DNA from: Solibacteraceae bacterium | GTDB taxonomy: Bacteria > Acidobacteriota > Terriglobia > Bryobacterales > Bryobacteraceae | DNA length: 64,000 nucleotides | Direction: 5' to 3' | Assembly (NCBI GenBank): GCA_021324015.1 | Contig: JAJPJX010000116.1 | Coordinates: forward strand, 1-64,000 | Part shown: piece after piece, positions 20,231-53,975 of the stretch | Position numbering within the stretch: the first letter of the stretch is position 1 | Layout of the letters: every line of letters starts with the position of its first letter | Program-made: the position numbers and the translations under genes | Notes under the pieces: model-generated | What the model was told of the DNA's origin: nothing | The model's database searches: none | What the model saw: only the letters and a program-made list of their open reading frames with translations

Positions 20231-20240
20231 CGGATTCCCG

Positions 20241-33229: not shown

Positions 33230-36200
33230 AAGACCGCTTCCTCCACCCCTCCAGGCAGGGCTTTGCTCTCCTGGGCTTCACCGGCAGCCCACCGGCAGGT
33301 CTCGATATGCTCGGCCAGGTCCGCCACCGTGGGCGACTCGAAAAATTCGCGCAGCGGGATCTCCGCGCGGAAATGCGCGCGCAGGCGATTCACCAATTGC
33401 GTGGCCACCAGCGAATCCCCGCCGCTTTCGAAGAAGTTGTCGTGGATGCCTACGCGCCCGGCCTTCAGCAACTCCCGCCAGATCTCCGCGACCTGCTCCT
33501 CCACGTCGTTGCGCGGCGCCACGAACGCCCGCCCGCCGGCCTCCGCGTCGGAGGGCGCCGGCAGCGCGCACCGGTCTACCTTTCCCGTGGCGGTCATGGG
33601 CAACATGTCAAGAAACACGTACGCGGCGGGCAGCATGTACTCGGGCAGCTTCCCGCGCAAATGCGCTTTCAGTTCTTCCGCCGCATACTGCCGGTAATCG
33701 AATCCGCTTCCCTCGTCCAGCCAGTGCTCCATCTGCTCGGCCGCGATGGCCCCGCCGGCAAAGCTGTGCAGCAGCATCTGGCTTGACCCAAGGCCGAACA
33801 GCGCCCGCAGCGGCTCGAACTGCACATACCCCATGGGACACAATCCCAAGCCCTGCTCCGGCGCTTCCGACATCAGTAACTGGCCGATGTATCCGGCTTC
33901 GATGAGGCAGTAGTCTCTGGATGCCTCCCCGTACATCGGCTCGATTGCTTCCATCTCCGCGATGAGAAAAACGCAGAAGGCCGCGCGCTCGAAAATGGCG
34001 CGGTTCGGACCCAGATAGGCGGAGGTGTCCACGCCCTCGGCGTCTCCGACCCGGTCCAGCCGGTGACGCTCGGGATGGTAGTAATAGATGCCGCCCTGCA
34101 ATCCCTCCACCCGCCCGGGCTTCACCAGGAGGTACGTTTGCACCGGGTAGAGGCCCCCGGCCGAGGGGTAGCGATACTTCGCCACCGGATACCCGTCGAG
34201 CGGCAGCGGCATCAGCGCGCTCAGAAGCGCAGCCAGCCGGGCGAGCGGCATCTCCTCGTCCAGAAACTTCCGGAAGCTCTGCCGCCGGAGATACGATCTG
34301 CGCAGCGCGGCGCTGGACCCCGGGCGCTCCAGCACAGTCCCGGTCTCCCCGGGCTTCGGGCTGCGGATGCCGCGGTGCTCCATCTTGAACTCGATGCGCT
34401 CCACCGGATCCAGGTGCGCCCGGCGCATGCCCGGCGGCGTGTACGCGTCCATCAGCACCTGCTGGTTCAGCGTCACATACGCCACCAGTCGCTTGTTCTG
34501 GCCTTGGCCGGCGGCCGTCACGACGCACGCGCGCACGGCCGCATGTTCCCGCAGTGCGGCTTCGATCTCGCCCGGCTCGATGCGGTGCCCGCGGATTTTG
34601 ACCTGGTAATCCGCGCGTCCCAGAAACTCGATGTTCCCGTCCGCCCGGTAGCAGCCGAGGTCGCCCGTGCGGTACAGGCGCTCGCCGGTCAGCGGGTTGT
34701 GGACGAATCTGGCCGCGGTCATGGCCTCGTCCCGCCAATACCCTCTCGCCAGCCCCGCGCCGGCGCAGTACATTTCTCCCGGCACCCAGTCGGGACGGTC
34801 TTCATACTGGTCGTTGAGGATGTAGTAGCGGTTGTTCGCCACCGGCTGGCCGTACGGGACGCTTTTCCAGCTCCGGTCCAGCACATCCACGGAGAACCAG
34901 ATGTTCCAGAGCGTGGTTTCGGTCGGACCGCCTACGCTCACCAGCGTGGCCTCCGGAGCCAGGGCCCGCAGGCGTTCGGGGGTGGACAGCGGAATCCAGT
35001 CGCCGCCCGTGAAAACCAGGCGCAGCCTCTCCGGCCGCCTCCCGCACGCGCCCGATTCGTAGCCATCCAGCAGCATCTCGAGCATGGCCGGCACAGAGTT
35101 CCAGATCGTGACCCCGCGCTCCTCGAGCAGTTGCGTCCAATGCGCCGGATCGTAGGCCCGATCCGCCGCCGGGATCACCAGCGCGCCGCCCGCCGCGGGC
35201 ACGCCGAACAGATCGTAGACGGACATGTCGTGGTGCATCGCGGTCACCGCCAGCACGCGGTCCCGCGGCCCCACGCCGAACCGCCGGTTGGTCTCGAGCA
35301 CCGCGTTCACCGCCCCCCGGTGCGCGATCGTGACGCCCTTGGGAGCGCCCGTCGAGCCGGAGGTGTAAATCACGTACGCCAGGTCATCCGGGCCGGCCGC
35401 CGGCGCGAGCGGCTCGCCGCTCTCTCCCTCAATCTCGGAGTCCTCGATGCATAAAATTGCCAGACCCGCCGGCCACTCTTCCTTCTCCCTCAGGTGCGGC
35501 TGAGTAAGCACCACGCGCGCTTCCGCCTGCGCCAGCATCTTCCACAAGCGTTCCCGCGGAGAGCGAATATCCAACGGCACGTAAGCCGCGCCCGCCGCCA
35601 GAATTCCGTACGCCGCCACGGCTTGTTGCCAGCCCTTCTCCATGGCCACGGCCACCAGTTCGTTCCGGCCCACGCCCAGTCCGCGCAGCCGCCGGGCGGT
35701 CTGGTTCGCCTTGCGGCCCAGTTCCCTGAAGCTCAGCGTCCGCTCCGGTGAAATCACCGCCGGCGCCTCGGGGCGCTCGCGCGCCTGCGCCGCAAGCAGC
35801 CCGTCCAGCGTAACCTCGGGAATCGGCGTGCTGCGCGCCTGCGCCTTCCGGCGGTCCAGGTGCGCCGCCGGGATCAGCGGCAGGCTGCGCGCTCCCCAGG
35901 TCGCCTCGTCCCTCGCCAGCCGCTCCAGCAGCCCCTTATAGGCCCCGAACATGTCGTCCACCATCCCGGGTGGGAAAAGATCTTCCACCGCGTCCCAGTA
36001 ACAGGTGACTGCGCCGCTCTGCTCGTAGATCACCTGGTTGTCGAGCCACACCTGCGGCGTCTGGCCAATGGAGTGCACGATTTTCCCGATCTTGCGCTCC
36101 ACCACGTCCAGCGGCACTGCCGAGTCCGCGTCTACCCCGTACGGCAGGCTCGTGAACACAATTGGCATGCGCGCGCCCGCGATTCGGCCCTCGGCCTGCG

Positions 36201-38883
36201 AGATCTCGCGAAGAATGCGCACGCCATTCACGTACTGGTGCTCCAGCCCCTTCCACAACCGTTCCTGCACCCGCCGCGCGCGCTCCTCGAAGCAGGCGCC
36301 CCCGCCCTCCGCGGCCACCAGCGTGAACGACGTAAAGGTGCCCACGAGGCTGTTCACCTGCGGGTGGAGTGGCTGCCGGTTGAACAGCGGCACGTTGATC
36401 GTAAACTGCGGGCTCTTGCTCCAGGCCGCCAGCACCTCGGCATAGGCCGCCAGAAGCAGTCCGGGCGGCGTCAGCCCGGCGCGCCTGGCCCGGACTTTCA
36501 GCTTTTCCCAAAGATCCGGCTCTAACCGCGCTGTGCGGCGGCGGAAGCGCGGAGCGCTCAGTCCCGCCGGATGCCTGGTCATGGGTAGTTCCGGCGCTGG
36601 AGGCAGCGCGCCCACCTGCTCCCGCCAGTACTCCAGCGACTTCCGGTAAAGTTCCGAACTCTCCAGTTCCGCCAGCGCCGCCACGTAATCCCGGAAGGAG
36701 AACTCCAGCCGCTCCGGCTCCAGGCGGCAGTTCGGATCTTCGTAAAGCCGGCCGAGTTCGGACATCAGCAGGATGTAGCTCCAACCATCCACGAACAACC
36801 CGTCGATGCTCATGTGCAGCCGGACCCGGCGCTCATTCAGCCGCGTGGCGCGCAGTTCAAACAAGGGCCACTGGTCCGCCGGACGCACCTGGTGGGACAT
36901 GCGCTGGCGGATCGCCTCCAACCGCGCCGTCTGCGCCTCGGGCGGTTGCGCGCTCAGGTCCGTGAGCTCGATCCGGTACTCCGGAACGTCTTTCAGAACC
37001 CGCTGCTGCCCGTCCCCGGTGGCCACGGCGCGCAGCATGTCGTGTCGCTTGATTAGCCTCTGCCAGCCGAGCTCCAGCCGCCCCAGGTCCAGCGTTTCGC
37101 TCTCGATCTCCGTGTAGGCGTGCGTGGCCACGTTGCCCATGTCCACCGCGTCTCCGCGCCCCACCCAGTAGGCCTGTTGCAGGTCGGTCAGCGGGAAAGG
37201 CTCGTGCCAGCGTGCCGGATCGGCCGTAGCCGGGGGAAGGCCGGCCGCCTGAGGCTCCGCAGTCCCCGCCCCCCGGTCGATCACACCCGCGAGGCTGGCG
37301 ATGGTCGGGTTCTCGAACAAGACGTGCAGCGGCAGGTCCGCGCCGAACGCTTCGCGTAGCCGGAACATCAACTGTGTGGCCAGCAGCGAATGCCCGCCGA
37401 GCTCGAAAAACCGGGCATGCACATCCAGTGGCGCCACTCCCAGTACGGCGCTCCAGATCTGCGCCGTGATCCTCTCGGTGGCCGTGCGCGGCGCGGTGAC
37501 TGCCGCCGTACGCGCGAGCCGGCGGATGCGCGGCGTCTCACCGGGTGCCGCCACCGCCGCGAGGGACGCCACCCGCGGCTCCGCGTCTAGCGCAACCGCC
37601 CGCAGCAGCGCCACAAGATGACGGCGAATCTTGCGCGCCTCGGGCTCCCACGTGCGCGCGCGGTCGTAGGTAATGCGGAGGCGCAGTTCCTCGTCCGGCA
37701 CGGCCAGGATGGTCAGTGGGTACGCCGTGTGCGCGCCGTGGAATCGGCCCTCGCGTAGTGCCAGTCCGGGAGCTCCGCCATACCCATCCCCCGCCGCCGA
37801 AGGATAGTTCTCCACTACCACCAGGCTTTCGAACAGAGGCATCGCCGCGGGCAGCCCGATCCATTGCTGGATCTGCGCCGCCGTGGCGAATTCGTGCGGA
37901 GCCTGGTCCAATTGGCACGCCTGGAGTTCCCGCAGCCAGTGCCACAACCGCTGCTCCTCCTCCACGGCGACGCGCACCGGCGCCGTGCGGAGGAACAGCC
38001 CCACCATGCGCTCCACGCCCGGCAAGTCGGCCGGGCGGCCGGAGACGGTCCTGCCGAACACCACGTCCCGCTCGCCGCTGTACCGGCTGAGCAGCACCGC
38101 CCACAGGCCTTCGAGGAGCGTACTCCAGGTGATCCCGTTCCGCCGGAGAGCCGCCCGCACCGCGGAGGTTTCCTCGCGGGAAAGCGCCCCCTCGACCGCG
38201 GCCCAGCCGCGCCCCGCGCCGTCCTCGCTCGCTTCCTCCACCTCGCCCAGCGCCGTGAAGTGCGAAAAGCCCGCCAGTCGCTCGCGCCAGAATCGCTCCG
38301 CGGCGCCGTGGTCGCGACGCCCCAGCCAGGCGATGTACTCCGCGTAGGGGCGCGCCGGTGGGAGCCGCGGCTCGCGCCCCTGGCGCACAGCCTCGTGGCA
38401 CTCCGCCAGTTCCCCTAGAATCAGCGGCAGGCACCAGCCGTCCATCAGCAAGTGGTGCGCCGTCCACAGGAAGATGTGCTCGTCTTCTCTTGTGCGGAAC
38501 AGCGCCGCCCGCATGAGCGGCGCGCGGTCCAGCCGGATCCCCCGCCGGCGTTCCGCTTCCATGCGGGCCGCCAGGGCCTCCCGCCGCGCGGCCGCCGGCT
38601 TCTCCCGCCAGTCTTCCACCTCGATCGGAAGCTCCACCTCCCGCAGCACCACCTGCATGGGCTCTTCCTGCTTCTTCCAGAGGAAGCGAGTTCGCAAGGC
38701 GGTGTGGCGTTCCAGCACCCTGCGCCAGGCTGCCTGGAACGCGCCGTAATCCAGCGCGCCTTGCCAGTTCCAATAAGCCTGCTCCAGGTGCAGGCCCGGT
38801 TCAGCGGCAGCCAGGCTCTGGAAGAGCATGCCCTGCTGCGAGGGCGAGAGCGGATAGATGTCCTCGATCTCTCTCTGGCTCAA
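33226..38883 (-). CDS. NRPS, C-T(no A)-Cy-A(with inserted oxidase)-T
   Basis: A 1885-residue protein from a TTG at 38883 with GGAGG six bases upstream. Domains: condensation 8-440 with an intact HHLLMDG at 143; a carrier with GGHSL at 496-500 and no adenylation domain before it; heterocyclization from about 562 (FPLTDLQQAYWVGR) with DGLFVDGWS at 694-702; A domain with YTSGSTG at 1173; an FMN oxidase domain inserted after A8 (about 1490-1715, with YRYPSAGGLYP at 1580); A10 (TATGKVDR); and a final carrier with GGDS at 1821. Cy plus Ox normally makes a thiazole from cysteine. The specificity code I read is DMYNFGVLWK, which shares the Y/N/W/K frame of cysteine codes but is not one I know. The A-less carrier must be loaded by another A domain or act as a relay. 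N-terminus (communication type) and acidic C-terminus (VEEAVF) fit the neighbours. Confidence 0.9.
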   Translation of the reverse strand: MSQREIEDIYPLSPSQQGMLFQSLAAAEPGLHLEQAYWNWQGALDYGAFQAAWRRVLERHTALRTRFLWKKQEEPMQVVLREVELPIEVEDWREKPAAARREALAARMEAERRRGIRLDRAPLMRAALFRTREDEHIFLWTAHHLLMDGWCLPLILGELAECHEAVRQGREPRLPPARPYAEYIAWLGRRDHGAAERFWRERLAGFSHFTALGEVEEASEDGAGRGWAAVEGALSREETSAVRAALRRNGITWSTLLEGLWAVLLSRYSGERDVVFGRTVSGRPADLPGVERMVGLFLRTAPVRVAVEEEQRLWHWLRELQACQLDQAPHEFATAAQIQQWIGLPAAMPLFESLVVVENYPSAAGDGYGGAPGLALREGRFHGAHTAYPLTILAVPDEELRLRITYDRARTWEPEARKIRRHLVALLRAVALDAEPRVASLAAVAAPGETPRIRRLARTAAVTAPRTATERITAQIWSAVLGVAPLDVHARFFELGGHSLLATQLMFRLREAFGADLPLHVLFENPTIASLAGVIDRGAGTAEPQAAGLPPATADPARWHEPFPLTDLQQAYWVGRGDAVDMGNVATHAYTEIESETLDLGRLELGWQRLIKRHDMLRAVATGDGQQRVLKDVPEYRIELTDLSAQPPEAQTARLEAIRQRMSHQVRPADQWPLFELRATRLNERRVRLHMSIDGLFVDGWSYILLMSELGRLYEDPNCRLEPERLEFSFRDYVAALAELESSELYRKSLEYWREQVGALPPAPELPMTRHPAGLSAPRFRRRTARLEPDLWEKLKVRARRAGLTPPGLLLAAYAEVLAAWSKSPQFTINVPLFNRQPLHPQVNSLVGTFTSFTLVAAEGGGACFEERARRVQERLWKGLEHQYVNGVRILREISQAEGRIAGARMPIVFTSLPYGVDADSAVPLDVVERKIGKIVHSIGQTPQVWLDNQVIYEQSGAVTCYWDAVEDLFPPGMVDDMFGAYKGLLERLARDEATWGARSLPLIPAAHLDRRKAQARSTPIPEVTLDGLLAAQARERPEAPAVISPERTLSFRELGRKANQTARRLRGLGVGRNELVAVAMEKGWQQAVAAYGILAAGAAYVPLDIRSPRERLWKMLAQAEARVVLTQPHLREKEEWPAGLAILCIEDSEIEGESGEPLAPAAGPDDLAYVIYTSGSTGAPKGVTIAHRGAVNAVLETNRRFGVGPRDRVLAVTAMHHDMSVYDLFGVPAAGGALVIPAADRAYDPAHWTQLLEERGVTIWNSVPAMLEMLLDGYESGACGRRPERLRLVFTGGDWIPLSTPERLRALAPEATLVSVGGPTETTLWNIWFSVDVLDRSWKSVPYGQPVANNRYYILNDQYEDRPDWVPGEMYCAGAGLARGYWRDEAMTAARFVHNPLTGERLYRTGDLGCYRADGNIEFLGRADYQVKIRGHRIEPGEIEAALREHAAVRACVVTAAGQGQNKRLVAYVTLNQQVLMDAYTPPGMRRAHLDPVERIEFKMEHRGIRSPKPGETGTVLERPGSSAALRRSYLRRQSFRKFLDEEMPLARLAALLSALMPLPLDGYPVAKYRYPSAGGLYPVQTYLLVKPGRVEGLQGGIYYYHPERHRLDRVGDAEGVDTSAYLGPNRAIFERAAFCVFLIAEMEAIEPMYGEASRDYCLIEAGYIGQLLMSEAPEQGLGLCPMGYVQFEPLRALFGLGSSQMLLHSFAGGAIAAEQMEHWLDEGSGFDYRQYAAEELKAHLRGKLPEYMLPAAYVFLDMLPMTATGKVDRCALPAPSDAEAGGRAFVAPRNDVEEQVAEIWRELLKAGRVGIHDNFFESGGDSLVATQLVNRLRAHFRAEIPLREFFESPTVADLAEHIETCRWAAGEAQESKALPGGVEEAVF

Positions 38884-38884
38884 T

Positions 38885-41800
38885 TCAATCCTCCGACTCC
38901 AGGTCCGCCAGCACCCGTGCGAGCTTCGCGCGGCTCAATTGCGCCGCCGGAAAGTCCGCGGGCGTGTACAGCGCCGCCCCCGCCGAAACCCAGCGCGGCA
39001 GCAGTTCCCGTAGGGAACACGCCAGCCGATCCGCCAGCAGGTTCCCCTCGCTTGGCGAAAACGCGCCGGCCGCCGCCGTGAGCCGGCACTCCAGCCGGCC
39101 CCCCGCCACCCAGGCATCCACTTGCAGGCCGTGGCTTGCGGGCAGGCGCGCATCCCGGCTCAGCCCGCCCGCCGCCGGCCCGTCCATCTGGCCGAGATAA
39201 TTGAACAGTAGATCCGATCGAGGCGCCTCCCTCAGTTGCGGCGCCGTGTCTTCCCGCAGGTAGCGCAGAATCCCGTACCCGAACCCGCGCTGGGGGACGG
39301 CGCGCCGCTGCTCCTTGACCGCCAACAGCAGTTCTGCGGGCGAGTCGGCTCCCCGGAGGTCGAGCAGCAGAGGAAAAATCGCCGTGAACCAGCCCACCGT
39401 GCGCGAGATGTCCACGCGTTCCAGCGGATGCTCCCGGCCTTGCGACTCTAACTCGATCCACAGCCGCGGATTTCCGATCCATTCCGCCAGCGTCTGCGCC
39501 AGGGCCGCGAGCAGGAGTTCCTCCACCGTGGCATGGCAGGCGCGCGGAGCCGAGCGCAGAAGCAACTCGGTCTGCCTCTCATCCAGCGAAATGCGGGCCT
39601 CGTGCGTACCGGCCCCGTACTCCCGCCGCCCCGCAAACGCCGCGCCTCGCCAATCTCGCGAAAGCCAGGACGGCATCTCCGCCAGCACGGCCTCCCCCGC
39701 AGCATATTCCTGCAACCGCCGCGCCCACGCGGGGAACCCGCAGGTCTCCGGGGGCAGCGGCATTCCCCGGCAAAGCAGGCTGAACTCTTCCAGGAGTATG
39801 TGCCACGATGCGCTGTCCACGACCATGTGGTGCGCCACCCACAGCACTCTCGCCGGCCGCCCGGAACCAGCGCGAACCAGAGCCGCGCGAAACACCGGGC
39901 CGCGCGCCAGGTCCAGTGCCGCGTGCAGCCGCGCAGCAGCCGCGTTACATTGCTCTTCGCTTTCGGAATCCACTACGCTCAGCAAGTCTGCTGTTTCGCG
40001 CGGCGCGGCCGCCTGCCGCCACCCCTCCGCCGTGCGCTCGAAGCGCAAACGCAGCGCCGCGTGCCGCTCCGTCAGGCGGGCCAGCGCGGCGCGCACGGCT
40101 TCCAGTTCCAGATCTTGCGGGACCTCGAGCAGCATCCACTGGTTGAAGTGATTGCGCCCCGATGCGTCCGCGAATTCCTCCAGAAACCGCCTCTGCATGG
40201 GGGCCAGCGGCGCCGGACCGTCGTCTTCTTCCTGGCCCTCGGCGCGCGCGGGGGCTGTGCCGATCTCCGCGCACAGCCCGGCAATGGTCTTGTGCTGAAA
40301 GATGTCTTTCGTGGTCAGACGCAGGCCGGCCAGCGCCGCCTTGGCGGCGATCTGGATGCTCAAGATAGAGTCGCCGCCCAGTTCGAAGAAGTCGTCGTGG
40401 ACGCCGATGCGCTCCGCTCCCAGCACCTCGGCCCACACCCCGGCCAGGGTCTTCTCCGCGGGCGTGCGGGGCGCCACGTATCCCGCCGCCGGCTCGGCTC
40501 TGCCGCAACTCTCGCGCGCCAGCGCCGCCCGGTCGATCTTGCCGTTGGGGGTCACCGGCAGCGCCTCGCGAATTACGATGGAGGACGGCAGCATGTAGGC
40601 TGGCAGCCGCTCGGCCAGCGCCCGCCGCACCTCCTCCGCTGTGAGAAACGGCTCGGGAAGCTGCGCCGGCTGGGCGTAGCTCCCCGCCGGCGAGGTCCGC
40701 CGCGCGCCCTCTCTCGCCGCGTAGACGTAGTAGTTCGTACACGTGCCGGCTTCGAGTTGCCAGTCCTGTTCCACCGCCACCTGGTAGCCGCGCTCCGCCA
40801 GCAGCGCCCGCACCGTTCCCAGCCGCCCACCCAGATCGTGCACCTCCATGGCGATCTGCCGGATCTTGGGCCAATCCCCAGCGTCGATTCCCTCGAGTAC
40901 ATCCAGCTCGCTTTTTTCCACGTTGATCTTGAGCAAGTCGATGCGCCCGATCCCGCGCTCCGCGATCAGGCGCGAAAGCGTGGTGACCTCGATCTCCAGT
41001 TCCTCGCTGCGAAAGCGGCTGTCCAGGAGTTCTTCGAACGCTGCCGTGCCGCCCCTTTCCAGCGCGTCCTCGCGCCCGCGAGCGCTCTCCTGCCGGCGCA
41101 CGAAAGAGCGCACCACCTGTTTTTCGGCCTCCACATCCGCGTAGACGCCGGAAAGCGACGTGAAGCCCGGATAATGCGTGTACCGGCGCCGCCCCGCTTG
41201 GTTCGAGAGCCCGGTTTCGAGCACACACACCTGCGCGCCGTACAACTCGGCGTTGAGCCGCAATGCCTCGCAAGCCGCTAGGTTGGGCTCCGCGGCATAG
41301 ATGCGCACCCCCGGCGCGCACAGGTGCGCGAACAGCGTGAACAGCCCTATGTTCGCGCCCGCGTCGAAGACGCAGTCCCCCGGCCCAATGCTGATGCCGT
41401 GCCGCAGATACGCGCGATTCTCGAACAGGTCGCGATACAGGAAGTCCGTCTCGTTGGCGTTGATCTCCACCACCGCCAGTCCGTTTGGCAGCCGGCGGCG
41501 GGGTCTTCCGCCGGCCGAAGCGCGTCGCGCCGGGTCCGGCGCCACGTGGGCAGCGAGCCTGGCGTGTCCCGAGCCCGCATCCGCCAGCACCGCCGCGGCC
41601 TCCCGCACACCTGGCACGCCCCTCAGCGCGCTCTCGATCTCCTCCAGTGCGATGCGGAATCCCCGCCACTTGATCTGGCCGTCTGCCCGCCCGCGGAACT
41701 CGATGCTGCCGTCTGGCAGGTAGCGGCCAAAATCGCCCGTGCGATACATCCGGGCTCCGGGATCGTCCGCGAACGGGTCCGCCACGAATCGCGCGGCAGT

Positions 41801-44362
41801 GAGTTTGGGCCGCTTCCAATAGCCGCGCGCCACGCCTGCGCCCGCAATCGCCAGCTCACCGTACACGCCTTGTGGCACGGGCTGCTGGAACCGGTCCAGA
41901 ATGTAGACCCGCACGTTCGCGAGGGGCCTACCGATGGTCGCTCCCGGGCAATCGGCTCCCACTCGCGCGCAGGTCGCATCCACGGTGCACTCGGTGGGCC
42001 CGTAGAGGTTGTAGAAGCGCATGTGCCGCGCGCGGCTGAGCCGCCCCCAGAGAGCCTCGGAAACCGGCTCGCCGCCCAGCAGCACGATCCGCGGACCGCC
42101 GCGTGTCTCCTCTAGCAGCCCGGCGTCCATCAGCCCCATCCATTGAGTTGGGGTGCAGTCCAGCACGTCCACCCGCCGCTCGCACAGATACTGTGCCATC
42201 TGCTGCGGATCGATCCGCGCCTCCTCGGGAATCAGTTCCAGAGCGTGGCCGTCAAGCAACTGGATGACCTGTTTGATCGACGTGTCGAAAGCCAGCGAGC
42301 CGTTCACGCTAACCCGCAGCGGACCTCGGGCGTCTCCGTAGACTTTCGCCCGTAGCGCGCCCAGCAGGTTCACCACGGAGCGATGCTCCACCATCACGCC
42401 CTTGGGCTCGCCTGTCGACCCGGAGGTGTAGAGCACGTACGCCAGGCTCCCGGGCGTGGCCCGCTGCGCCGGATCTGCGCCACTTTCGTCGGCCGGCCCC
42501 GGATCGGCGGGATCGACGCACACCACTGCATCCCCGAACCCGTGCCGCCCCGCGGCCACCAGAATCCGTATGCCGGCATCCGCGGCCACGAATTCCAGCC
42601 GTGCCCGCGGATAGGCCGGGTCCAGCGGCACATACGCCGCGCCGGCCTTCCAGATGCCCCACAGGCCGGCCATCGTCGCCAGCGACCGGTCGGCCCACAG
42701 GCCCACCGGTTCCTCCCCGCGGACCCCCAGCCGACGCAGCCGCGCGGCCACCGCGCCGGCGCGCGCGTCCAGTTCGCGGAACGTCCACACTTCCTCCCCG
42801 CACCGCACGGCCGGCGCGTCCGGTGTGCGCACCGCCTGTGCTTCGAACAACTCCGCGAGAGTCTTCTCCGGCAGATCCGCAACCGTGTCGTTCCACTCCC
42901 GCAGCAGTTTGTGGTGTTCCTCGGGGGCAAGCAGCGGCAGCCGGCTCACCCGCCCCTGCGGCTCGGCCAGAACCGAGCGCAGCAGCGTCTGGTAATGCCG
43001 CGCCAGCCGTTCCATGGCGGCGCGGTCGAACAACGCCGTGTTATATTCCAACTGGCCCAGCAGGCCGTCCCCGCTGTCGCGGATCGAAAGCCCCAGGTCG
43101 AACTTGCAGGTTCCGTTCTCCACCTCCTGGTAGGTCACGCGGAGTCCTGATGGAGTTTCGGGCCTCGGCAGCTTCTGGTAATCGAACGCCGCTTGAAACA
43201 GTGGCGTGCGGCTGGCGTCCCGCGGCAACGGCAGCTCGTCCAGCAATCGCTCGAAAGGCAGATGCTTGTTCGCGTGCGCCTCCACCGAGAAGCGCCGCGT
43301 GCGCTCCACCAGCTCCACGAACGTCGGGTCATCCGCCAGGTCCGCGCGATACACCAGCGTGTTCACAAAATTGCCGATGAGCGGCTCCAGCTCCGTCCGG
43401 TCCCGGTTGGTGACCGGCACGCCGGTTAGCAGATCATCCTGGCCGGTCCAGCGGGATAGCAGCGCCTGGAAAGCCGCCAGCAGGACCATCATCGGCGTCG
43501 CGCCTTGCCGCCGGCCCAGTTCCTCGATCCCGGCGGCGATGGTCCGCGGAACGGCGAAGTGCAGACGCGCGCCCGCGGAAGTGCGCAGCGCGGGGCGGGC
43601 GCGGTCGGTCGGCAGATCCAGCACGGGCAAGGGCGGCCGCAGAACCTGCTTCCAAAAAGCCAGTTCGCGCGCCATCTGTTCGTTTCCCAGCGAGGCCCGT
43701 TGCCAGGCCGCATAATCGGCGTACTGCACCGTCAGCGGAGGCAGCGCCGCCGGCGGTCCCGTCTGGAAACCGGCGTAGAGTGCGAACAGCTCCCGGAAAA
43801 AGATCCCCGCCGACCAGCCATCGAAAATGATGTGATGCGCCGTGAGCACCACCAGTTGATTCTCGGCGTCCGTGCGGATGGAGGCCAGCCGCGCCAGCGG
43901 CAGCCGGTCGGGTGCGAACACGCGCCGGGCTTCGGTTTCCGCCAACCGCTGCGCCTCCGCTTCGCGCTCCTCCGGCGTCGCGCCCGCGGCCTCCAGGCAC
44001 GCAACGCGCGTCTCCATCCTCGCGGCGATTTTCTGCCGCAGTTCTCCGCCTTCGCTTACGAAACACGTCCGCAGGATTTCGTGCCGGTGAACGACTTCTT
44101 GGAAGGCTCTCCCCAGCAGATCCGTCCGCAGCGGACCGCGCACGCGCAGTACCACCGCTTCGGTGTACACCGGAGTCTCCGGGTCCCAGTGATGGTTGAA
44201 CCACATGCGCTCCTGCGCCGGCGCCGCCGCGCACGTGTCCGTGTTCTCCGGCCGGAGCGGAATCGACGGCTCCCGGTTTTTCCGCAGGGCCAGCAGTTGC
44301 TGTTCGAGCAGGGCCCGCTTCTCGGGAGACAATGCCGCGATGCGCTGGGTCAGGTGGCTCAT
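38885..44362 (-). CDS. NRPS, C-A(Glu-like, with inserted FkbM methyltransferase)-T-E
   Basis: An 1825-residue module. The ATG at 44362 lies 11 bases after the PKS stop. Domains: a helical N-terminal segment (LSPEKRALLEQQLLALRK) suited to accepting from a PKS; condensation with HHIIFDG at 176; A domain with YTSGSTG at 645; an FkbM-family methyltransferase inserted after A8 (about 955-1215; VFDAGANIG at 998 and LLKINVEKSELDVLEG near 1143); A10 (TPNGKIDR); carrier with GGDS at 1329; epimerization domain (about 1380-1790) with HHMVVDSASW at 1511 and FNYLGQMD. My code reading is DTKDLGLVDK, close to the glutamate code DAKDLGVVDK. FkbM enzymes are O-methyltransferases, so a methyl ester or ether on a D-configured acidic residue is plausible. 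The C-terminus resembles a donor communication helix for the next protein. Confidence 0.9.
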   Translation of the reverse strand: MSHLTQRIAALSPEKRALLEQQLLALRKNREPSIPLRPENTDTCAAAPAQERMWFNHHWDPETPVYTEAVVLRVRGPLRTDLLGRAFQEVVHRHEILRTCFVSEGGELRQKIAARMETRVACLEAAGATPEEREAEAQRLAETEARRVFAPDRLPLARLASIRTDAENQLVVLTAHHIIFDGWSAGIFFRELFALYAGFQTGPPAALPPLTVQYADYAAWQRASLGNEQMARELAFWKQVLRPPLPVLDLPTDRARPALRTSAGARLHFAVPRTIAAGIEELGRRQGATPMMVLLAAFQALLSRWTGQDDLLTGVPVTNRDRTELEPLIGNFVNTLVYRADLADDPTFVELVERTRRFSVEAHANKHLPFERLLDELPLPRDASRTPLFQAAFDYQKLPRPETPSGLRVTYQEVENGTCKFDLGLSIRDSGDGLLGQLEYNTALFDRAAMERLARHYQTLLRSVLAEPQGRVSRLPLLAPEEHHKLLREWNDTVADLPEKTLAELFEAQAVRTPDAPAVRCGEEVWTFRELDARAGAVAARLRRLGVRGEEPVGLWADRSLATMAGLWGIWKAGAAYVPLDPAYPRARLEFVAADAGIRILVAAGRHGFGDAVVCVDPADPGPADESGADPAQRATPGSLAYVLYTSGSTGEPKGVMVEHRSVVNLLGALRAKVYGDARGPLRVSVNGSLAFDTSIKQVIQLLDGHALELIPEEARIDPQQMAQYLCERRVDVLDCTPTQWMGLMDAGLLEETRGGPRIVLLGGEPVSEALWGRLSRARHMRFYNLYGPTECTVDATCARVGADCPGATIGRPLANVRVYILDRFQQPVPQGVYGELAIAGAGVARGYWKRPKLTAARFVADPFADDPGARMYRTGDFGRYLPDGSIEFRGRADGQIKWRGFRIALEEIESALRGVPGVREAAAVLADAGSGHARLAAHVAPDPARRASAGGRPRRRLPNGLAVVEINANETDFLYRDLFENRAYLRHGISIGPGDCVFDAGANIGLFTLFAHLCAPGVRIYAAEPNLAACEALRLNAELYGAQVCVLETGLSNQAGRRRYTHYPGFTSLSGVYADVEAEKQVVRSFVRRQESARGREDALERGGTAAFEELLDSRFRSEELEIEVTTLSRLIAERGIGRIDLLKINVEKSELDVLEGIDAGDWPKIRQIAMEVHDLGGRLGTVRALLAERGYQVAVEQDWQLEAGTCTNYYVYAAREGARRTSPAGSYAQPAQLPEPFLTAEEVRRALAERLPAYMLPSSIVIREALPVTPNGKIDRAALARESCGRAEPAAGYVAPRTPAEKTLAGVWAEVLGAERIGVHDDFFELGGDSILSIQIAAKAALAGLRLTTKDIFQHKTIAGLCAEIGTAPARAEGQEEDDGPAPLAPMQRRFLEEFADASGRNHFNQWMLLEVPQDLELEAVRAALARLTERHAALRLRFERTAEGWRQAAAPRETADLLSVVDSESEEQCNAAAARLHAALDLARGPVFRAALVRAGSGRPARVLWVAHHMVVDSASWHILLEEFSLLCRGMPLPPETCGFPAWARRLQEYAAGEAVLAEMPSWLSRDWRGAAFAGRREYGAGTHEARISLDERQTELLLRSAPRACHATVEELLLAALAQTLAEWIGNPRLWIELESQGREHPLERVDISRTVGWFTAIFPLLLDLRGADSPAELLLAVKEQRRAVPQRGFGYGILRYLREDTAPQLREAPRSDLLFNYLGQMDGPAAGGLSRDARLPASHGLQVDAWVAGGRLECRLTAAAGAFSPSEGNLLADRLACSLRELLPRWVSAGAALYTPADFPAAQLSRAKLARVLADLESED

Positions 44363-44373
44363 CCTGGGCTCCC

Positions 44374-47300
44374 TCAGTCGGCGCCTGCCGCTCTCGATGC
44401 CGCGGCCAGCAGCGCCTGCGCCTCTGCGTCGGAGAGCTGCTCCACCTTCGCTAGAGCCCCCTCCAGTTGTCCGGCCGGGGCCAGTTGCGCGGACAGCCTC
44501 GCCGCCAGTTGCGCCGGCGAACAGGTGAATAGATCGATCAACGAGACCTTGAGATGCAGCTTGGATTGAATCCGGTTGCGCAGTTCCACCGCCATCAGCG
44601 AATCCATGCCCATCGCGCTGAGGGTCTTGTTTGCGCTGAGGCGCGCGGGATCGTAGCGCAGCACGCGGGCAGCTTCCTCGCGCAGCCACTCCTCCGCCGC
44701 CGCCAGCCTCTCGCCGGCGTCCGCGAGCATTAGGCGCAACAGGGCCGCGTCCCCGGCTTCCCCGGAGGAAGACGTCTGCTGCGCCGGAGCGGTCAATTCG
44801 GAAAGAAGCGGCGTCGGCTGCATCGCTCCCCAATCGGCATCGAACACGGCCGCTTGCGTGTAGCCGCCCCGTAGCAGGTGCTCCAGGGCTTCCAGCCCCA
44901 GCGCCGGTTCGATGCGTCTCACCGCGCGCAGCGTGGCATCCGCTCCCGTGGTTTCCCGCGCCAGGATGCCCACCTGCGACCACGGCCCCCAGTTGATGAC
45001 CAGCGCCGGCAGCCCGCAGGCGCGGCGGTGGTGCGCCAGCGCGTCCGCAAACGTGTTGCCGCAGGCGTAGTTCGCCTGTCCGAAATGGCCGAGCAGGCCG
45101 GTCATCGAGGAGTACAGCACAAAGAAATCCAGCGGCAGATGCCGCGTCAGCGTGTGCAATGCCCACGACCCGAACACCTTCGGCCGCACCACCGCCTCGA
45201 ACGTCGCGCGGTCCATGCGCAGCAGCAACTGGTCGCGGATCAGCCCCGCCGAATGCACGATGCCCCGGATCTCCGGCCAGCCTTCGCTCTCGTACTGGGC
45301 CAGGAACTCGGCCAGTTGCCCTTCGTCGCCCACGTCCACTGCGGCCGCTTGCACGTGCGCGCCCAACCGCTCCAGCTCCCGGATTGCCGCCACACGGGAT
45401 GCCGCGGGATGTCCGGGAGGCATGTGCTTCCACGCGGCGCGCGGCGGCAGTGGGGTGCGCCCCAGCAGAATCAGCCGGCGCGCCCCGCGCTGCGCCATCC
45501 ATCTCGCCGTCTCCAGGCCCAGCCCGATCAGGCCGCCGGTAATGATATAGGAGGCCTCCGGCCGGAAGAGCAAGGGAACCTCGCCCGGCCCCGGATCCTC
45601 GGCCCGTGACAGCCGCAGGGCGTATCTGCGTCCTCCCCGATACGCGATCTCATCCGGATCGCCCGCCCGCAGAATCTCCGCGCATAGCAGTTCCGCGTCG
45701 CGCTCCGGATCCGCGCCCCCCAGGTCCACCAGGCCGCCCCAGAATTCCGCGTGCTCCAGCGCGACAACCCGGCCCAGCCCCCAATACGGCGCCGCGCTGA
45801 CTTGCAGCCGCTCGCCGGTTCGCTCCACGGCCTGAGCTTTGCGCGTCACCATCCACAGCCGCGGATAAACCCCAGCGACGGCCTCGGCCAGCCCGCGCAC
45901 CACTTGTGTCACGCTCTCCCAACCGCGCGACAACTCCGCCGCCAGGGATGCCGCAGACGTCTCCTCCGCGGGCGCGCTGTCCAGCGCCCGGAGATGCACA
46001 ATTCCCGCAACCGCCGGCATGTCCCCGTGCGCGGCTTCCCGCAACAGTCCCGCCACATTCGCGCTCTCGCGCGTTGCCAGTGTTCGATGCCCGAGCCTTT
46101 CCAGCCGCGCCGCCAGCCTCTCGCCTACCCCCTGCGAATCCGCCAGCAAAATCCACGTTCGCGGTTCCCCCTCCGGTGCGCCATCCCTATCGAGCGGCTG
46201 CTCCCGCCATCTCGGCTCGTACAAAATCGCGCGCGCCGTGCGGGACCCATCCGCTTGTGCGGCGTCAACGCGCTGCAACCGCAGCCCGGTGACGGCGGCC
46301 GCCACCTGGCCGGAACCGTTGATCATCTCCAGGTCGGCCTCCAGCGTGGCCTCTCCCGGCTGGCTTCCGCCCGTGAGCCGCGCGTGAACCGAAATACACG
46401 CTTCCGGCCGCGCGAAGATCTCCAGTCGTCCCACCGCGCGTGGCACGTACGTGCTGCTCTCGCCGGGCGGCAGCGTGGCGGCCACCACTTGAAAAGCTCC
46501 ATCCAGCAGCAGGGGATGCAGCTGGTAGGCCTTTACCTCGCTGGCGGCCGAAGCCGGCAGTTCGACTCTGCCCCATGCCTCGCCGTCCGTACGCCGGACC
46601 TCGCGCACCACCCGGAAGGCCGGTCCGTAACAGATGCCGCGCCGCTCCATGGCCTGGTAGTGCGCCTCCGCCTCTATCCGCTCGGCGCCGCCGCTCGCGC
46701 ATCCTGTCGCCCGCCGCTCCTCCCGCGCAGCCACGAAGACCACCGCGCCCGAAGCGTGCAGCACAGCCGCCTCGCTATTTGCCGGCCGGCTGTAGATCCG
46801 AATCGAAATCTCCCCGGCGGAGACTGGCGATGCCACCACCTGCACGCGATGCTGCTCTCCCGCGCCCAGCCCCAACGGCCGTATGAACTCCAGGCGTTCG
46901 AGGACGCATGCCCGGCCGCCGGCCACCTCGCCCGACGCTGCCAGCGCCATTTCCACGAAGGCGGCGCCCGGCAGCAGCACCGTCTCTCCCAGCCGGTGAT
47001 CCTCCAGGTAATGCACCGTTCTGGCGTTCAGGTCCAACTCCCAGAAGTGCTCTCCCGGGCGCGCCGCGGAGGCCAGGTGCTCGCCCAGCAGAGGCCGCAC
47101 GCCCTCCCGGGAACCTGCCGCGCTCCCCGGAAGCTGATCGAACCAGTAGCGCTCCCGCTGCCACGGATACGTGGGCAGCGGCACATGCGGCCCGCCTCGC
47201 GGATAGCGGCGCTTCCAATCCACCGGGTAGCCCAGCACATACAGGGCTCCCAGCGACCCGAGCAGGGTGGCCTGCTCATCCGCCTCGCGCTCGAGCGAGG

Positions 47301-49791
47301 GCAGCGCTTCCCCTGCCACTCCCAGGCTCGCCAGTCCCTGCCGGATAGCGCCCGCCAGCACCGCGTGAGGGCTAATCTCCAGGAACACGCTGTGCCCGCT
47401 CTCCGCCAGCCGCTCCACGCCCTGCGCGAAGCGGAAAGGCTCCCGCAGATTGCGCGCCCAGTACGCCGCATCCAGCGCCTCGCCCGCTGTCACCCGGCCG
47501 GCCACTGTCGAGAAGAACGGAATCGAAGTTCCCCGCGGCCGGATGTCCGCCAGGCGTCTGGCGAGTTCCTCCACCACCGCATCCATCTGCGGGCTGTGCG
47601 CGGCCACGTCCACGTTGCCGAGCAGCCGGCAAAACACGCCCCGCTGCTCCAGGCTCGCCAGCACTTCCTCAAGCGCATCGGGGTCCCCCGAAATCACGCT
47701 CGAGGCCGGCCCCGTACTCCCGGCCACCGCCAGCCGGCTCTCGTATCCCTGGATCGCCCTTTCCGCCGCCTCATGCGCCAGGCCGACTACCGCCGTCCGC
47801 CCGAGCCCTGCGCGCGTCTGCAAGAGGCGGCTGCGTTCGTAGACCACGCGGGCCGCGTCTTCCAGGTTCAGCGCCCCCGCCACGTAAGCGGCCGCCACCT
47901 CGCCCAGGCTCTGCCCGATAATCGCGTCCGGCGTTACGCCCCAGGAGCGCCACAACGCCGCCAGCCCTACTTGAAACGCGAAGATGATCGGCTGCGCCAC
48001 GTCCATGCGCTGCCAGAGCGCCTCGGAAGCCTGCGCGCCCAGCCGGTCCGTAAGCGGCCAACCGGTGTGCGCCGCGAGCCGCCGCGAGCAGTCTTCCAGT
48101 GCTTCGCGGAACACCGGCTCTGCGGAGCAAAGCTGGCTGCCCATCCCCAGCCAGTGCGCGCCCTGCCCGGAAAACACGAACACCAGCTTGGGCCGCTCCA
48201 CCGGCGCGGGTCCGCCCCAACGTGTGGTGGCCGCCACTTCTCCGGCGTCCGCGAACGCCGCGAGTTGTGCGCCGGCCTGCTCGGCCGTGCGCGCCGCCAC
48301 CGTCAGCCGGTAGTCGTGATGCGTGCGCTGCAAGCTGGCCGCCCGGCAGATCTCCGGAAAATGAAAGCCGCGCCCCTCCGCCCCTGCCAGGAACTCCCGG
48401 TAGCGCGCCGCGCACGCTCGCAGCGCTTCGGGACTGCGCGCCGAAATCGGCAGCACGCAGGACTCGCCGCCCGCGATGCGCGCCGTTTCCGCTGGCGGCG
48501 CCTCTTCGAGGACCACGTGCGCATTCGTCCCGCCGAAGCCGAATCCGCTGACCCCCGCCACGCGCCGCCGCCGCGCCGCCGGCCAAGGCCCCGGTTGCGT
48601 GTAGATCCGCAGCGGGAAGTCCAGATCCCGCAACATCGGATTCAGCTCGCGGAAGTGCAGGTTCGGCGGGATCACCCCGCGTTCCAGCGCCAGAGCCGTC
48701 TTGATCACTCCCGCAACCCCGGCGGCTGCCTCCGGATGCCCCAGGTTGGATTTCACGGATCCCAGCACGCAGGCGAAATCCCGCGGCCGTTCCTGCCCCA
48801 GCACAGCCGCGAGCGAACCAGCCTCGATCGGATCGCCCAGCGGCGTGCCCGTGCCGTGCGTCTCCACGTACTGCACTTCCGCCGGAGAAATGCCCGCTTT
48901 GGCGTATGCTTCGCGAAGCAGCGCCTCCTGCGCCGCGCCGTTCGGCGCCATGATCCCGTTGCTGCGCCCGTCCTGGTTCACCGCGCTCGCGCGAATCACG
49001 GCGTGGATGCGGTCGCCGTCGGTGAGCGCCCGCGAAAGCCGCTTCAGCGCCACCAGCCCCGCGCCTTCGCCGCGCACCATGCCGTTCGCCGAGGCATCGA
49101 ACGGCTTCGAGCGTCCGTCTGGCGCCAGGGATCCCGCGCGCGAAAAGAACACGTCCCCGGAAGGCAGCAGGTTGAGGCTCACCCCGCCCGCCAGCGCCAT
49201 CTCCGTCTCGCCCGCCCGCAGCCCCAGGCAGGCCAGGTGAATCGCCACCAGCGAACCCGAGCAGGCCGTGTCCACCGCCAGGCTCGGCCCGCGCAGATCG
49301 AAGAAGTACGAGACCCGGTTCGCCACGATGCTGTTCGCCGTCCCGATGCCCGTGTAGATCTGGAACCGCGTCAGGTCGCGAGAAATCAATTGGTCGTAGT
49401 CGTTTGTCAGCGTGGCGATGTACACGCCCGTGCGGCTGCCCGCCAGTTGCTCCGGAGGGATGCCCGCGTCCTCCAGCGTTTCCCAGGCCACTTCCAGCAT
49501 CAGCCGTTGCCGCGGATCCACGTGCGGCGCCTCCCGCGGCGAAATCCCGAAAAACGCGGCGTCAAAGCGATCCACTTCGTCCAGAAAGCCGCCGCAGCGC
49601 GCCTTGATCTTTCCCGCCGCGTTCTGGTCCGGGTGGTAATACGCGTTGACGTCCCAGCGCTCCGGCGGGACCTCCTTCACCGCGTCGCGCCCCTCGATCA
49701 GCAGATCCCAGAACTGCGCCAGGCCGGGCGCGCCGGGATACCGGCATCCCATGCCGATGATGGCGATCGGTTCGCGCTCGGGGCTGCTCAT
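44374..49791 (-). CDS. Type I polyketide synthase module, KS-AT-DH-KR-ACP
   Basis: An 1805-residue single module. Its ATG (49791) overlaps the ligase stop (ATGA). KS: DTACSGS with Cys 177, His 312 (THGTGTPLGD) and His 352 (SNLGH). AT: GQSLGE with Ser 628; the extender-selective motif is VAAHS (729-733), between the malonyl (HAFH) and methylmalonyl (YASH) patterns, so the extender is uncertain. DH: DHRLGETVLLPG near 931 and LLLDGAFQ with Asp 1097; the usual Gly of HxxxGxxxxP appears as Glu. KR: TGGLIGLG near 1420, LYSSMTG and QANYACGN, and an Asp in the loop after HSAG that suggests B-type (D-hydroxy) reduction. No enoylreductase. ACP: GMDS at 1728. It would extend the aryl starter by one unit to a dienoyl chain and pass it to the Glu-like module. 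Confidence 0.92.
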   Translation of the reverse strand: MSSPEREPIAIIGMGCRYPGAPGLAQFWDLLIEGRDAVKEVPPERWDVNAYYHPDQNAAGKIKARCGGFLDEVDRFDAAFFGISPREAPHVDPRQRLMLEVAWETLEDAGIPPEQLAGSRTGVYIATLTNDYDQLISRDLTRFQIYTGIGTANSIVANRVSYFFDLRGPSLAVDTACSGSLVAIHLACLGLRAGETEMALAGGVSLNLLPSGDVFFSRAGSLAPDGRSKPFDASANGMVRGEGAGLVALKRLSRALTDGDRIHAVIRASAVNQDGRSNGIMAPNGAAQEALLREAYAKAGISPAEVQYVETHGTGTPLGDPIEAGSLAAVLGQERPRDFACVLGSVKSNLGHPEAAAGVAGVIKTALALERGVIPPNLHFRELNPMLRDLDFPLRIYTQPGPWPAARRRRVAGVSGFGFGGTNAHVVLEEAPPAETARIAGGESCVLPISARSPEALRACAARYREFLAGAEGRGFHFPEICRAASLQRTHHDYRLTVAARTAEQAGAQLAAFADAGEVAATTRWGGPAPVERPKLVFVFSGQGAHWLGMGSQLCSAEPVFREALEDCSRRLAAHTGWPLTDRLGAQASEALWQRMDVAQPIIFAFQVGLAALWRSWGVTPDAIIGQSLGEVAAAYVAGALNLEDAARVVYERSRLLQTRAGLGRTAVVGLAHEAAERAIQGYESRLAVAGSTGPASSVISGDPDALEEVLASLEQRGVFCRLLGNVDVAAHSPQMDAVVEELARRLADIRPRGTSIPFFSTVAGRVTAGEALDAAYWARNLREPFRFAQGVERLAESGHSVFLEISPHAVLAGAIRQGLASLGVAGEALPSLEREADEQATLLGSLGALYVLGYPVDWKRRYPRGGPHVPLPTYPWQRERYWFDQLPGSAAGSREGVRPLLGEHLASAARPGEHFWELDLNARTVHYLEDHRLGETVLLPGAAFVEMALAASGEVAGGRACVLERLEFIRPLGLGAGEQHRVQVVASPVSAGEISIRIYSRPANSEAAVLHASGAVVFVAAREERRATGCASGGAERIEAEAHYQAMERRGICYGPAFRVVREVRRTDGEAWGRVELPASAASEVKAYQLHPLLLDGAFQVVAATLPPGESSTYVPRAVGRLEIFARPEACISVHARLTGGSQPGEATLEADLEMINGSGQVAAAVTGLRLQRVDAAQADGSRTARAILYEPRWREQPLDRDGAPEGEPRTWILLADSQGVGERLAARLERLGHRTLATRESANVAGLLREAAHGDMPAVAGIVHLRALDSAPAEETSAASLAAELSRGWESVTQVVRGLAEAVAGVYPRLWMVTRKAQAVERTGERLQVSAAPYWGLGRVVALEHAEFWGGLVDLGGADPERDAELLCAEILRAGDPDEIAYRGGRRYALRLSRAEDPGPGEVPLLFRPEASYIITGGLIGLGLETARWMAQRGARRLILLGRTPLPPRAAWKHMPPGHPAASRVAAIRELERLGAHVQAAAVDVGDEGQLAEFLAQYESEGWPEIRGIVHSAGLIRDQLLLRMDRATFEAVVRPKVFGSWALHTLTRHLPLDFFVLYSSMTGLLGHFGQANYACGNTFADALAHHRRACGLPALVINWGPWSQVGILARETTGADATLRAVRRIEPALGLEALEHLLRGGYTQAAVFDADWGAMQPTPLLSELTAPAQQTSSSGEAGDAALLRLMLADAGERLAAAEEWLREEAARVLRYDPARLSANKTLSAMGMDSLMAVELRNRIQSKLHLKVSLIDLFTCSPAQLAARLSAQLAPAGQLEGALAKVEQLSDAEAQALLAAASRAAGAD

Positions 49792-53183: not shown

Positions 53184-53975
53184 CTACTGCCGTCCGCCGG
53201 CAAGTTCGGCGAAATCGAGCCTCTCTGGATGCAGTTCCTGGGCTACCAGGCGGCCAAATTCCGCGCCCATACGGTCCACGAAAAAGTGCCCGCCGGGCAG
53301 CATCTGCAGGCGAAAATCTGTGCGAGTGTGCCGTCGCCAAGCCTCCAGGTCCCCGCGGCTGATGCCGGAATCCTGCTCACCCCCGAAGGCCGAAATCGCG
53401 CAGTCCAGCGGTTCCTCTTCCTGGAAACGGTAGGAGTGGCAGAGCTCGAAATCGGCGCGCAGCGCCGGAAGCATCAGGTCCAAGAGCTCCGGATCAGTGA
53501 AAAATTGATCGGGCGTGCCTTCCAGGTCCCGCAGCTCTCTCAAAAACTCCGCCCGCGGCAGATCGTGAATCGCGGATTTCTGGTTCGGCAGGTGCGGAGC
53601 GCGTCGCCCGGAAACCAGCAGGCGTTCCGGCAGGCGCCCTCCCCTGCGGCGCAGCGCTCGGGCCACTTCGAAGGCCACCAGCGCGCCCATGCTGTGGCCG
53701 AACAGCGCATAGGGCCGCTCTGTGAACGGAGCCAGTGCCTCGGCCAGCGCCTCCGCGAGCGGGCCTATCCGCCGGTAGGCAGCCTCCCGGATCCGCCCGG
53801 CCCGTCCCGGCAGGTGCGCCGCCGCGGCGTGCACGCCGGGCATCGCTGCCGGTGTCCACTGCCGGTAGGTGCCGGCGTTTCCGCCCGCGTACGGAAAGCA
53901 GAACAGAAAAATCGCGGAAGGCGGGGCGCCCTGCAATCCTGGAAACCAAGGCTCGCCGAAAGCGCGATGTAGCAT
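53184..53975 (-). CDS. Type II thioesterase (GrsT-like)
   Basis: A 263-residue alpha/beta hydrolase. Type II thioesterases clear stalled or mis-primed acyl groups from carrier proteins of PKS and NRPS enzymes. Motifs are FCFPYAGGNAGTYRQW at the oxyanion region, GHSMGALVAFEVAR with the nucleophile Ser (about residue 94), Asp in FGGEQDSGIS, and the catalytic His in MLPGGHFF. Length and order are typical of GrsT/TycF/SrfAD proteins. The ATG at 53975 has GAGGG about nine bases upstream. It is the first gene of the cluster operon, about 100 bases downstream of the predicted promoter. No signal peptide. Confidence 0.9.
   Translation of the reverse strand: MLHRAFGEPWFPGLQGAPPSAIFLFCFPYAGGNAGTYRQWTPAAMPGVHAAAAHLPGRAGRIREAAYRRIGPLAEALAEALAPFTERPYALFGHSMGALVAFEVARALRRRGGRLPERLLVSGRRAPHLPNQKSAIHDLPRAEFLRELRDLEGTPDQFFTDPELLDLMLPALRADFELCHSYRFQEEEPLDCAISAFGGEQDSGISRGDLEAWRRHTRTDFRLQMLPGGHFFVDRMGAEFGRLVAQELHPERLDFAELAGGRQ

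Follow-up and report, generated by a model that had tools for sequence, protein, structure and literature searches.

An FkbM-type methyltransferase inserted in a glutamate-type adenylation domain as a predicted side-chain carboxyl methyltransferase

Which atom of its substrate does a methyltransferase methylate when it sits inside an adenylation (A) domain with a glutamate-type code? The question is raised by a hybrid PKS/NRPS cluster in the window, by which we mean the whole 64,000-nucleotide stretch of the Solibacteraceae contig JAJPJX010000116.1 that was analyzed. One open reading frame of this cluster, at 38885 to 45502 on the reverse strand and with its likely gene start at 44362 (MSHL...), encodes an 1,825-residue module that Pfam and NCBIfam profiles order as C-A(FkbM)-T-E (Table 1). 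All of the Pfam matches in the protein lie above the curated cut-offs, including two Condensation stretches that sum to 510.7 bits. A preliminary description of the DNA had placed an FkbM methyltransferase between motifs A8 and A10, called the A domain Glu-like, and seen an E domain in the same module, and all of this was borne out. The A core, A10, and the T domain are present, and the PF05050 match and the motif positions put the methyltransferase between a8 and a9/a10, making this an interrupted A domain of the A-M-A (a8/a9) type. The insert had been drawn at residues 955 to 1215, which fits the methyltransferase alignment (about 949 to 1228). The code, read on an alignment, is DTKDLGLVDK, a Glu-type code with two mismatches to the textbook Glu code, DAKDLGVVDK. 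The C-terminal part of the module scored 75.2 bits against TIGR01720 (cut-off, 74.2), a model that we take to be typical of E domains.

Table 1. Positions in the window of the module, its inserted methyltransferase, and the surrounding cluster
Feature	Position	Strand	Basis or remark
Stand-alone thioesterase	53184..53975	-	PF00975
Aromatic amino acid ammonia-lyase family protein	51588..53171	-	PF00221, 544.1 bits
Acyl-adenylating enzyme with carrier domain (loading)	49788..51581	-	Profile matches
Upstream PKS module KS-AT-DH-KR-ACP	44374..50040	-	ORF as listed; true start may be further in
C domain	42902..44239	-	Residues 42-487; PF00668 Condensation, best stretch
A core	41816..42847	-	Residues 506-849; PF00501 AMP-binding, 262.9 bits; code DTKDLGLVDK
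A8 motif IKWRGFRIALEEIE	41633..41674	-	Residues 897-910; final A-domain motif ahead of the insert
Inserted FkbM-type methyltransferase	40679..41518	-	About residues 949-1228, between A8 and A9/A10; PF05050, homologues, models
SAM motif I, VFDAGANIG	41345..41371	-	Starts at residue 998; D1000, G1002, N1004, G1006
Asn1147 codon (LLKI[N/D]VEK, Asp/Asn position)	40922..40924	-	Alignment and model strand limits
A-domain C-terminal part, with A10 TPNGKIDR at 1271	40538..40654	-	PF13193 AMP-binding_C, residues 1237-1275
Carrier (T) domain	40265..40450	-	PF00550 PP-binding, residues 1305-1366
E-domain region, containing HHMVVDSASW	38885..40207	-	TIGR01720, 75.2 bits
Downstream C-T-Cy-A-Ox-T	33226..38883	-	Cys-like A by eye; nitroreductase-type oxidase: thiazole
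Downstream Cy-A-MT-T	28631..33229	-	Cys-like A by eye; Methyltransf_12-type MT
Downstream C-A(Ser-like)-T-C-A(Ala-like)-T-TE	21231..28583	-	Profiles and codes

The insert matched Methyltransf_21/FkbM (PF05050) over residues 1000 to 1195 with 61.3 bits (cut-off, 22.7), spanning the full model from 1 to 173, and the score at the genome level was 67 bits. PF05050 was the only Pfam family for the insert, which gave none of the Methyltransf_12/11/25-type matches of an NRPS N-methyltransferase insert, and no N-methyltransferase-type family was listed for the 1,825-residue protein. The other methyltransferase of the cluster, at 28631 to 33229, matches Methyltransf_12/11/25/23/31. The family named in the preliminary description thus held up, and the SAM-binding residues, whose loss would have spoken against it, are kept. 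D1000, G1002, N1004, and G1006 form a DxGxNxG motif and are conserved in more than 95% of 89 aligned domains; 24 of the 25 positions with this degree of conservation are retained in the window insert, the exception being F1024, which is Ala.

Structures were predicted without ligand, with a pLDDT of 86.6 and a pTM of 0.75 for the A-FkbM-A part and a pLDDT of 91.8 for the methyltransferase alone. The A-FkbM-A model found its best structural match in the A-M-A protein TioS (PDB 5wmm; E value, 1.1e-50; 937 columns; both parts aligned), at an overall rmsd of 17.1, so that agreement of the domain arrangement is not implied. The methyltransferase-only model matched class I methyltransferases. Among them was the FkbM structure 2py6 (Z score, 14.8; rmsd, 2.3 over 169 residues; 17% identity), and many class I enzymes tied with or ranked above it, so no single methyltransferase class is favored. 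By sequence, no solved relative of the insert fell below an E value of 0.1 (best, 0.13; best by profile, 0.15). Both models place Asn1147 directly after the predicted strand that we count as beta-4, at a position whose equivalent in class I O-methyltransferases such as COMT we take to be catalytic or metal binding.

To place the window insert among its relatives, we used the best 80 of 367 confirmed loci from a scan of genome contigs, plus plasmid loci and the window. Host codes were classed with a code table, allowing up to three mismatches. Among the loci listed, 69 FkbM domains had a readable upstream A core, and 66 of these hosts had Thr-, Ser-, Asp-, Asn-, or Glu-like codes, compared with 33 of the 95 other A cores at the same loci. 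The 69 host codes comprise 19 Glu-like, 19 Thr-like, 15 Asp-like, 8 Ser-like, 5 Asn-like, and 1 Cys-like code and 2 others, and they include many close relatives, hence not 69 independent events. In an A-core tree built without the code columns, the cores clustered by amino acid, with FkbM presence requiring 24 changes, which implies gain or loss of FkbM domains in several A lineages whose amino acids have a side-chain oxygen in common. The window A core grouped with DAKD cores and with two cores coded DAEDVGAVD and DAQDWGVVD (support, 98). Nine of 396 sampled genomes of the window's phylum, the window genome included, had a match at an E value of 1e-50. Of the 60 further genomes closest to that of the window, none had an insert match at 1e-20. 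Judged from these comparisons, FkbM inserts at the A8-A10 site are common across many phyla, many of them in Ser/Thr modules. The preliminary description had called a side-chain methyl ester on a D-residue an unusual prediction. The insertion itself is not unusual, and the predicted acid ester is the best reading of the comparative data. At two loci (L143 and L144), FkbM domains lie downstream of A cores coded GDQIISLCDK, beta-Ala-like by eye, and these are possibly corramycin-like (compare PMC10099666).

When acidic and hydroxyl hosts were compared, position 1147 was singled out among the 11 columns listed, with positions 1027 and 1212 changing alongside. For an enlarged set of 122 domains, genomes were added by six further searches that listed 51 places: 38 were fetched, 6 were already in the set, and 7 cyanobacterial ones (open frames of 268 to 291 aa) were left out. 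Fragments L027 and L071b were removed before alignment, and six duplicates (L122, L123, L133, L134, L165, and L175) do not enter the count. Across the 122 domains, residue 1147 was Asp in all 25 Thr-code and all 13 Ser-code hosts (38/38 together), as well as in 10/10 DAKD-Glu and 5/5 Asn-code hosts. It was Asn in every one of the 16 hosts with a DTKD-Glu code like that of the window and in 19 of 20 Asp-code hosts; Asn1147 is common to these 35 classed Glu/Asp hosts, which come from several phyla. Hosts with other codes gave four Asp and one Asn, and the 28 domains whose A core was not found by motif search, counted separately, gave 27 Asp and one Asn. This one Asn belongs to L066, whose A core escaped the script but has by eye the code DTKDLGLVDK.

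A few loci depart from the pattern. The insert at L044 (7989-8819) has Asn1147 despite a non-acidic, Cys-like host code (DLYDFSLVWK) and represents a separate Asp-to-Asn change. L171, from the search around the class of Xanthobacter, has a Ser host and a methyltransferase inside the Glu/Asn1147 clade yet carries Asp, a possible natural reversal by its sequence; L174 of the same clade also has Asp, its A core not being found. The methyltransferase trees of 89 and of 122 rows both put the window in a clade of mostly DTKD hosts (support, 99). This Glu clade joined the Asp-code clade in the 89-row tree (support, 97), and the joint set had no printed support in the 122-row tree.

The DAKD-Glu hosts share an acidic substrate class with the window and keep Asp, and the genes around them include TauD-type hydroxylases. 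The hydroxylase search around the homologues was for TauD, using a profile seeded from four genes beside L048 and L049, which makes both loci positive by construction. On the fetched stretches, TauD accompanied 12 of the 16 Asp1147 hosts with acidic or amide codes and 0 of the 35 Asn1147 Glu/Asp hosts (Fisher test on 51 rows, p of about 1e-8, relatedness ignored). The positive hosts included 9 of 10 with DAKD-Glu codes (the contig of the tenth is 10 kb) and 2 of 5 with Asn codes, the other 3 having none. They also included L079, the sole Asp-code host with Asp1147, whose TauD gene lies about 9 kb upstream; it became positive after a stretch extension that was not applied to all Asn-type loci. 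Fetched flanks were often short: in the first set, 13 of 29 Asn-type loci and 5 of 9 Asp-type loci had at least 7 kb on both sides. To avoid this limit, we compared genome-wide TauD positions with insert positions in 28 genomes, some of them fragmented MAGs. Thirteen of 26 genomes with Asn-type inserts had no TauD at all, and in the remaining ones it lay on other contigs, except at L012, a locus of the DTKD set whose 348-kb contig carries three TauD genes at 16 to 27 kb from the insert. In the same check, the Asp1147 Glu inserts of L048, L049, and L072 had TauD within about 3 kb. The window genome has a single TauD match, on another contig, and no hydroxylase family was matched in the 24 window proteins scanned, a subset of the window ORFs. 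Residue 1147 changes just three times on the tree, and the pattern is clade bound; the independent tree contrasts number one for residue versus TauD and two for residue versus carboxyl host and are not significant.

The DAKD-Glu FkbM modules of L048, L049, L136 to L140, and L173 adjoin TauD genes and keep Asp1147, and we predict that they make beta-methoxy-Glu. Two tandem FkbM domains lie in one ORF of L052, with two TauD genes nearby.

Taken together, these data lead us to assign carboxyl O-methylation of the side chain to Asn-type inserts and hydroxyl O-methylation to Asp-type inserts. On this simple reading, Asp1147 would mark inserts whose acceptor is a hydroxyl, whether native or added by TauD, and Asn1147 those whose acceptor is a carboxylate. 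Because methylation of a carboxylate does not call for a general base, the Asp of hydroxyl-methylating relatives could be lost. The window insert is of the Asn-type subclass, whose hosts have Glu (DTKD) or Asp codes and which has Asn instead of Asp at the end of beta-4. For the window module, we therefore favor, at a probability of roughly 0.68, an FkbM domain that methylates the side-chain carboxylate to give the gamma-methyl ester of Glu, epimerized to the D form. The preliminary description had arrived at a side-chain methyl ester as well, and the host codes, residue 1147, and the absence of TauD make it the best reading. It had leaned on the rule that FkbM enzymes are O-methyltransferases. 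That rule has backing in 29 natural-product FkbM proteins with O-methylation (4 shown and 25 proposed) and is unsafe all the same, given that EreM of the pythonamide pathway, a PF05050 member, N-methylates the backbone of a RiPP (PMC9259500). Our assignment of O-methylation here draws on what the hosts select and on the Asp/Asn position; the family name does not enter into it.

The module would activate L-Glu as Glu-AMP and load it onto its own carrier domain (Glu-S-T), where the FkbM domain would use SAM to methylate the side-chain carboxylate and so yield gamma-methyl glutamate. We place methylation after loading because a review of interrupted A domains has that order (PMC11355689). The C domain would join the methylated Glu to the upstream aryl-polyketide chain, and the E domain would then convert the residue to the D form for passage to the C domain of the thiazole-forming protein.

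Other outcomes have to be weighed against a gamma-methyl ester. Carrier-bound Glu could be hydroxylated and then O-methylated by the FkbM domain to beta-methoxy-Glu, in the manner proposed for the beta-alanine of corramycin, which would be hydroxylated and then methylated in cis by an O-methyltransferase domain (PMC10099666). The TauD genes beside nine of the ten DAKD modules, together with the three on the L012 contig within the window's own DTKD set, speak for such a route. For the window it is unlikely, since the module falls in the DTKD/Asn1147 set: no TauD gene occurs on any of the 35 Asn1147 Glu/Asp stretches, four Paenibacillus genomes of the DTKD set are without any TauD, and the scanned cluster proteins matched no hydroxylase family.

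An insert that behaved like the usual N-methylating ones would yield N-methyl-Glu. This is the chemistry of 6 of 10 review rows of interrupted A domains that are N-methylating only, with the TioS row counted once (PMC11355689), and EreM demonstrates it for an FkbM member (PMC9259500). Backbone N-methylation, because it needs no side-chain oxygen, would not predict hosts that share one, but among the loci listed a code of this kind occurs in 66 of 69 hosts, compared with 33 of the 95 other cores. With no N-methyltransferase-type Pfam match in the protein, and with the FkbM-type domain of HtmB1 assigned to O-methylation (PMC10624959), we consider N-methylation distinctly unlikely. Could the domain instead be inactive or purely structural? 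Asn at the candidate catalytic Asp position and Ala at the near-invariant Phe 1024 would fit, and we still hold this to be very unlikely: 24 of the 25 most conserved positions are intact, including the four SAM-motif residues, the fold prediction is a confident one (pLDDT, 91.8), and Asn1147 recurs in 35 classed hosts of several phyla, unlike random decay.

The surrounding genes suggest where the ester would end up. In gene direction, the cluster runs thioesterase, lyase, acyl-ligase with carrier, PKS, the FkbM module, C-T-Cy-A-Ox-T, Cy-A-MT-T, and C-A-T-C-A-T-TE. The lyase scored below the cut-off of all eight NCBIfam models listed and likely supplies a cinnamate-type starter. The C domain of the next NRPS begins IEDIYPLSPSQQGMLF, which we take to be the start of a D-accepting type of C domain. 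From this layout, the product could plausibly be a peptide of the aryl-dienoyl-D-Glu(OMe)-thiazole type. That next NRPS opens with C-T, lacking an A domain, ahead of Cy-A-Ox-T, and its A-less T might be passed over or receive its substrate in trans. Past the terminal NRPS, at 17164 to 21215 on the reverse strand, lie patatin-like phospholipase, ABC1 kinase-like, and glycosyltransferase-like genes.

A related layout occurs in Xanthobacter autotrophicus AM5 (L009 and L177), with an opposite-strand lyase that scores 723 bits to the window lyase and ligase and PKS genes upstream. L009 continues with KS-AT-DH-KR, C-A(DTKD)-FkbM-T, and Cy-A-Ox, and by this gene content the cluster probably makes a product related to that of the window. 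Among the homologous loci whose domain order was read, those of Paenibacillus, Bradyrhizobium, Paraburkholderia, and Clostridium have a KS after Glu-FkbM-T. The window has an E domain directly after Glu-FkbM-T, which none of the 18 homologous loci read in this way has.

The wider proposal, to which we give even odds, is that Asn1147 FkbM inserts are a distinct and widespread group of on-line side-chain carboxyl O-methyltransferases, with methyl esters of Glu and Asp as their products on the assembly line. They would be set apart from hydroxyl-methylating inserts by one switch from Asp to Asn at the end of beta-4. This switch would allow the chemistry of products to be forecast, beta-methoxy acidic residues among them at loci that combine Asp1147 with TauD. 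The ester might also act as a mildly activated acyl group in a subsequent cyclization. If true, ester-forming and ether-forming methyltransferase domains of peptide assembly lines could be told apart by sequence, a distinction that PF05050 by itself does not provide. Methyl-ester Glu or Asp would be expected in cryptic clusters of organisms recorded as Xanthobacter, Paenibacillus, Parabeggiatoa, Blastocatellia, Terriglobia, Gemmatimonadetes, and others. Methyl esters alter charge, uptake, and reactivity and may be dismissed as extraction artefacts, so a prediction would help chemists to retain them.

Among the literature matches listed, in a body of papers that does not include the classification of interrupted A domains by Lundy et al. 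(2020), none describes an FkbM insert making Glu or Asp esters or an Asp/Asn rule. Two possible precedents were set aside. Miuraenamide, whose producer carries L049, has a stand-alone O-methyltransferase, MiuE, and Glu is unmentioned in the available part of its source paper; the methyl esters of lusichelin are terminal, and a separate LCM-type enzyme has been proposed as their source. O-methylating A-domain inserts are already known from KtzH and ColG (PMC11355689), as is an FkbM-type O-methyltransferase domain from HtmB1. KtzH of the kutznerides is an A-Ms-A protein giving O-methyl-Ser and, like the window module, has a side-chain O-methyltransferase at a8/a9 of the A domain. It differs in acting on a Ser hydroxyl rather than under an acidic code, and the likeness is one of description that does not imply FkbM membership of its M domain (PMC11355689). 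TioS, the best structural match to the A-FkbM-A model, is a backbone N-methyltransferase (PMC11355689). EreM shares the FkbM family with the window insert and differs in methylating the backbone nitrogen of a RiPP (PMC9259500), while 2py6 matches the inserted domain in structure and is a 375-residue chain with 17% identity to it. The FkbM/FKMT-type domain of HtmB1 module 16 in hangtaimycin resembles the window insert in carrying DxGxNxG within an NRPS module and in being assigned to O-methylation by its authors, a likeness drawn from the description and not from sequence or place relative to the A domain. Its assigned target is O-21 of hangtaimycin, reached by elimination because deletion of the domain abolished the product (PMC10624959), whereas the window insert is predicted to act on the side-chain carboxylate of Glu.
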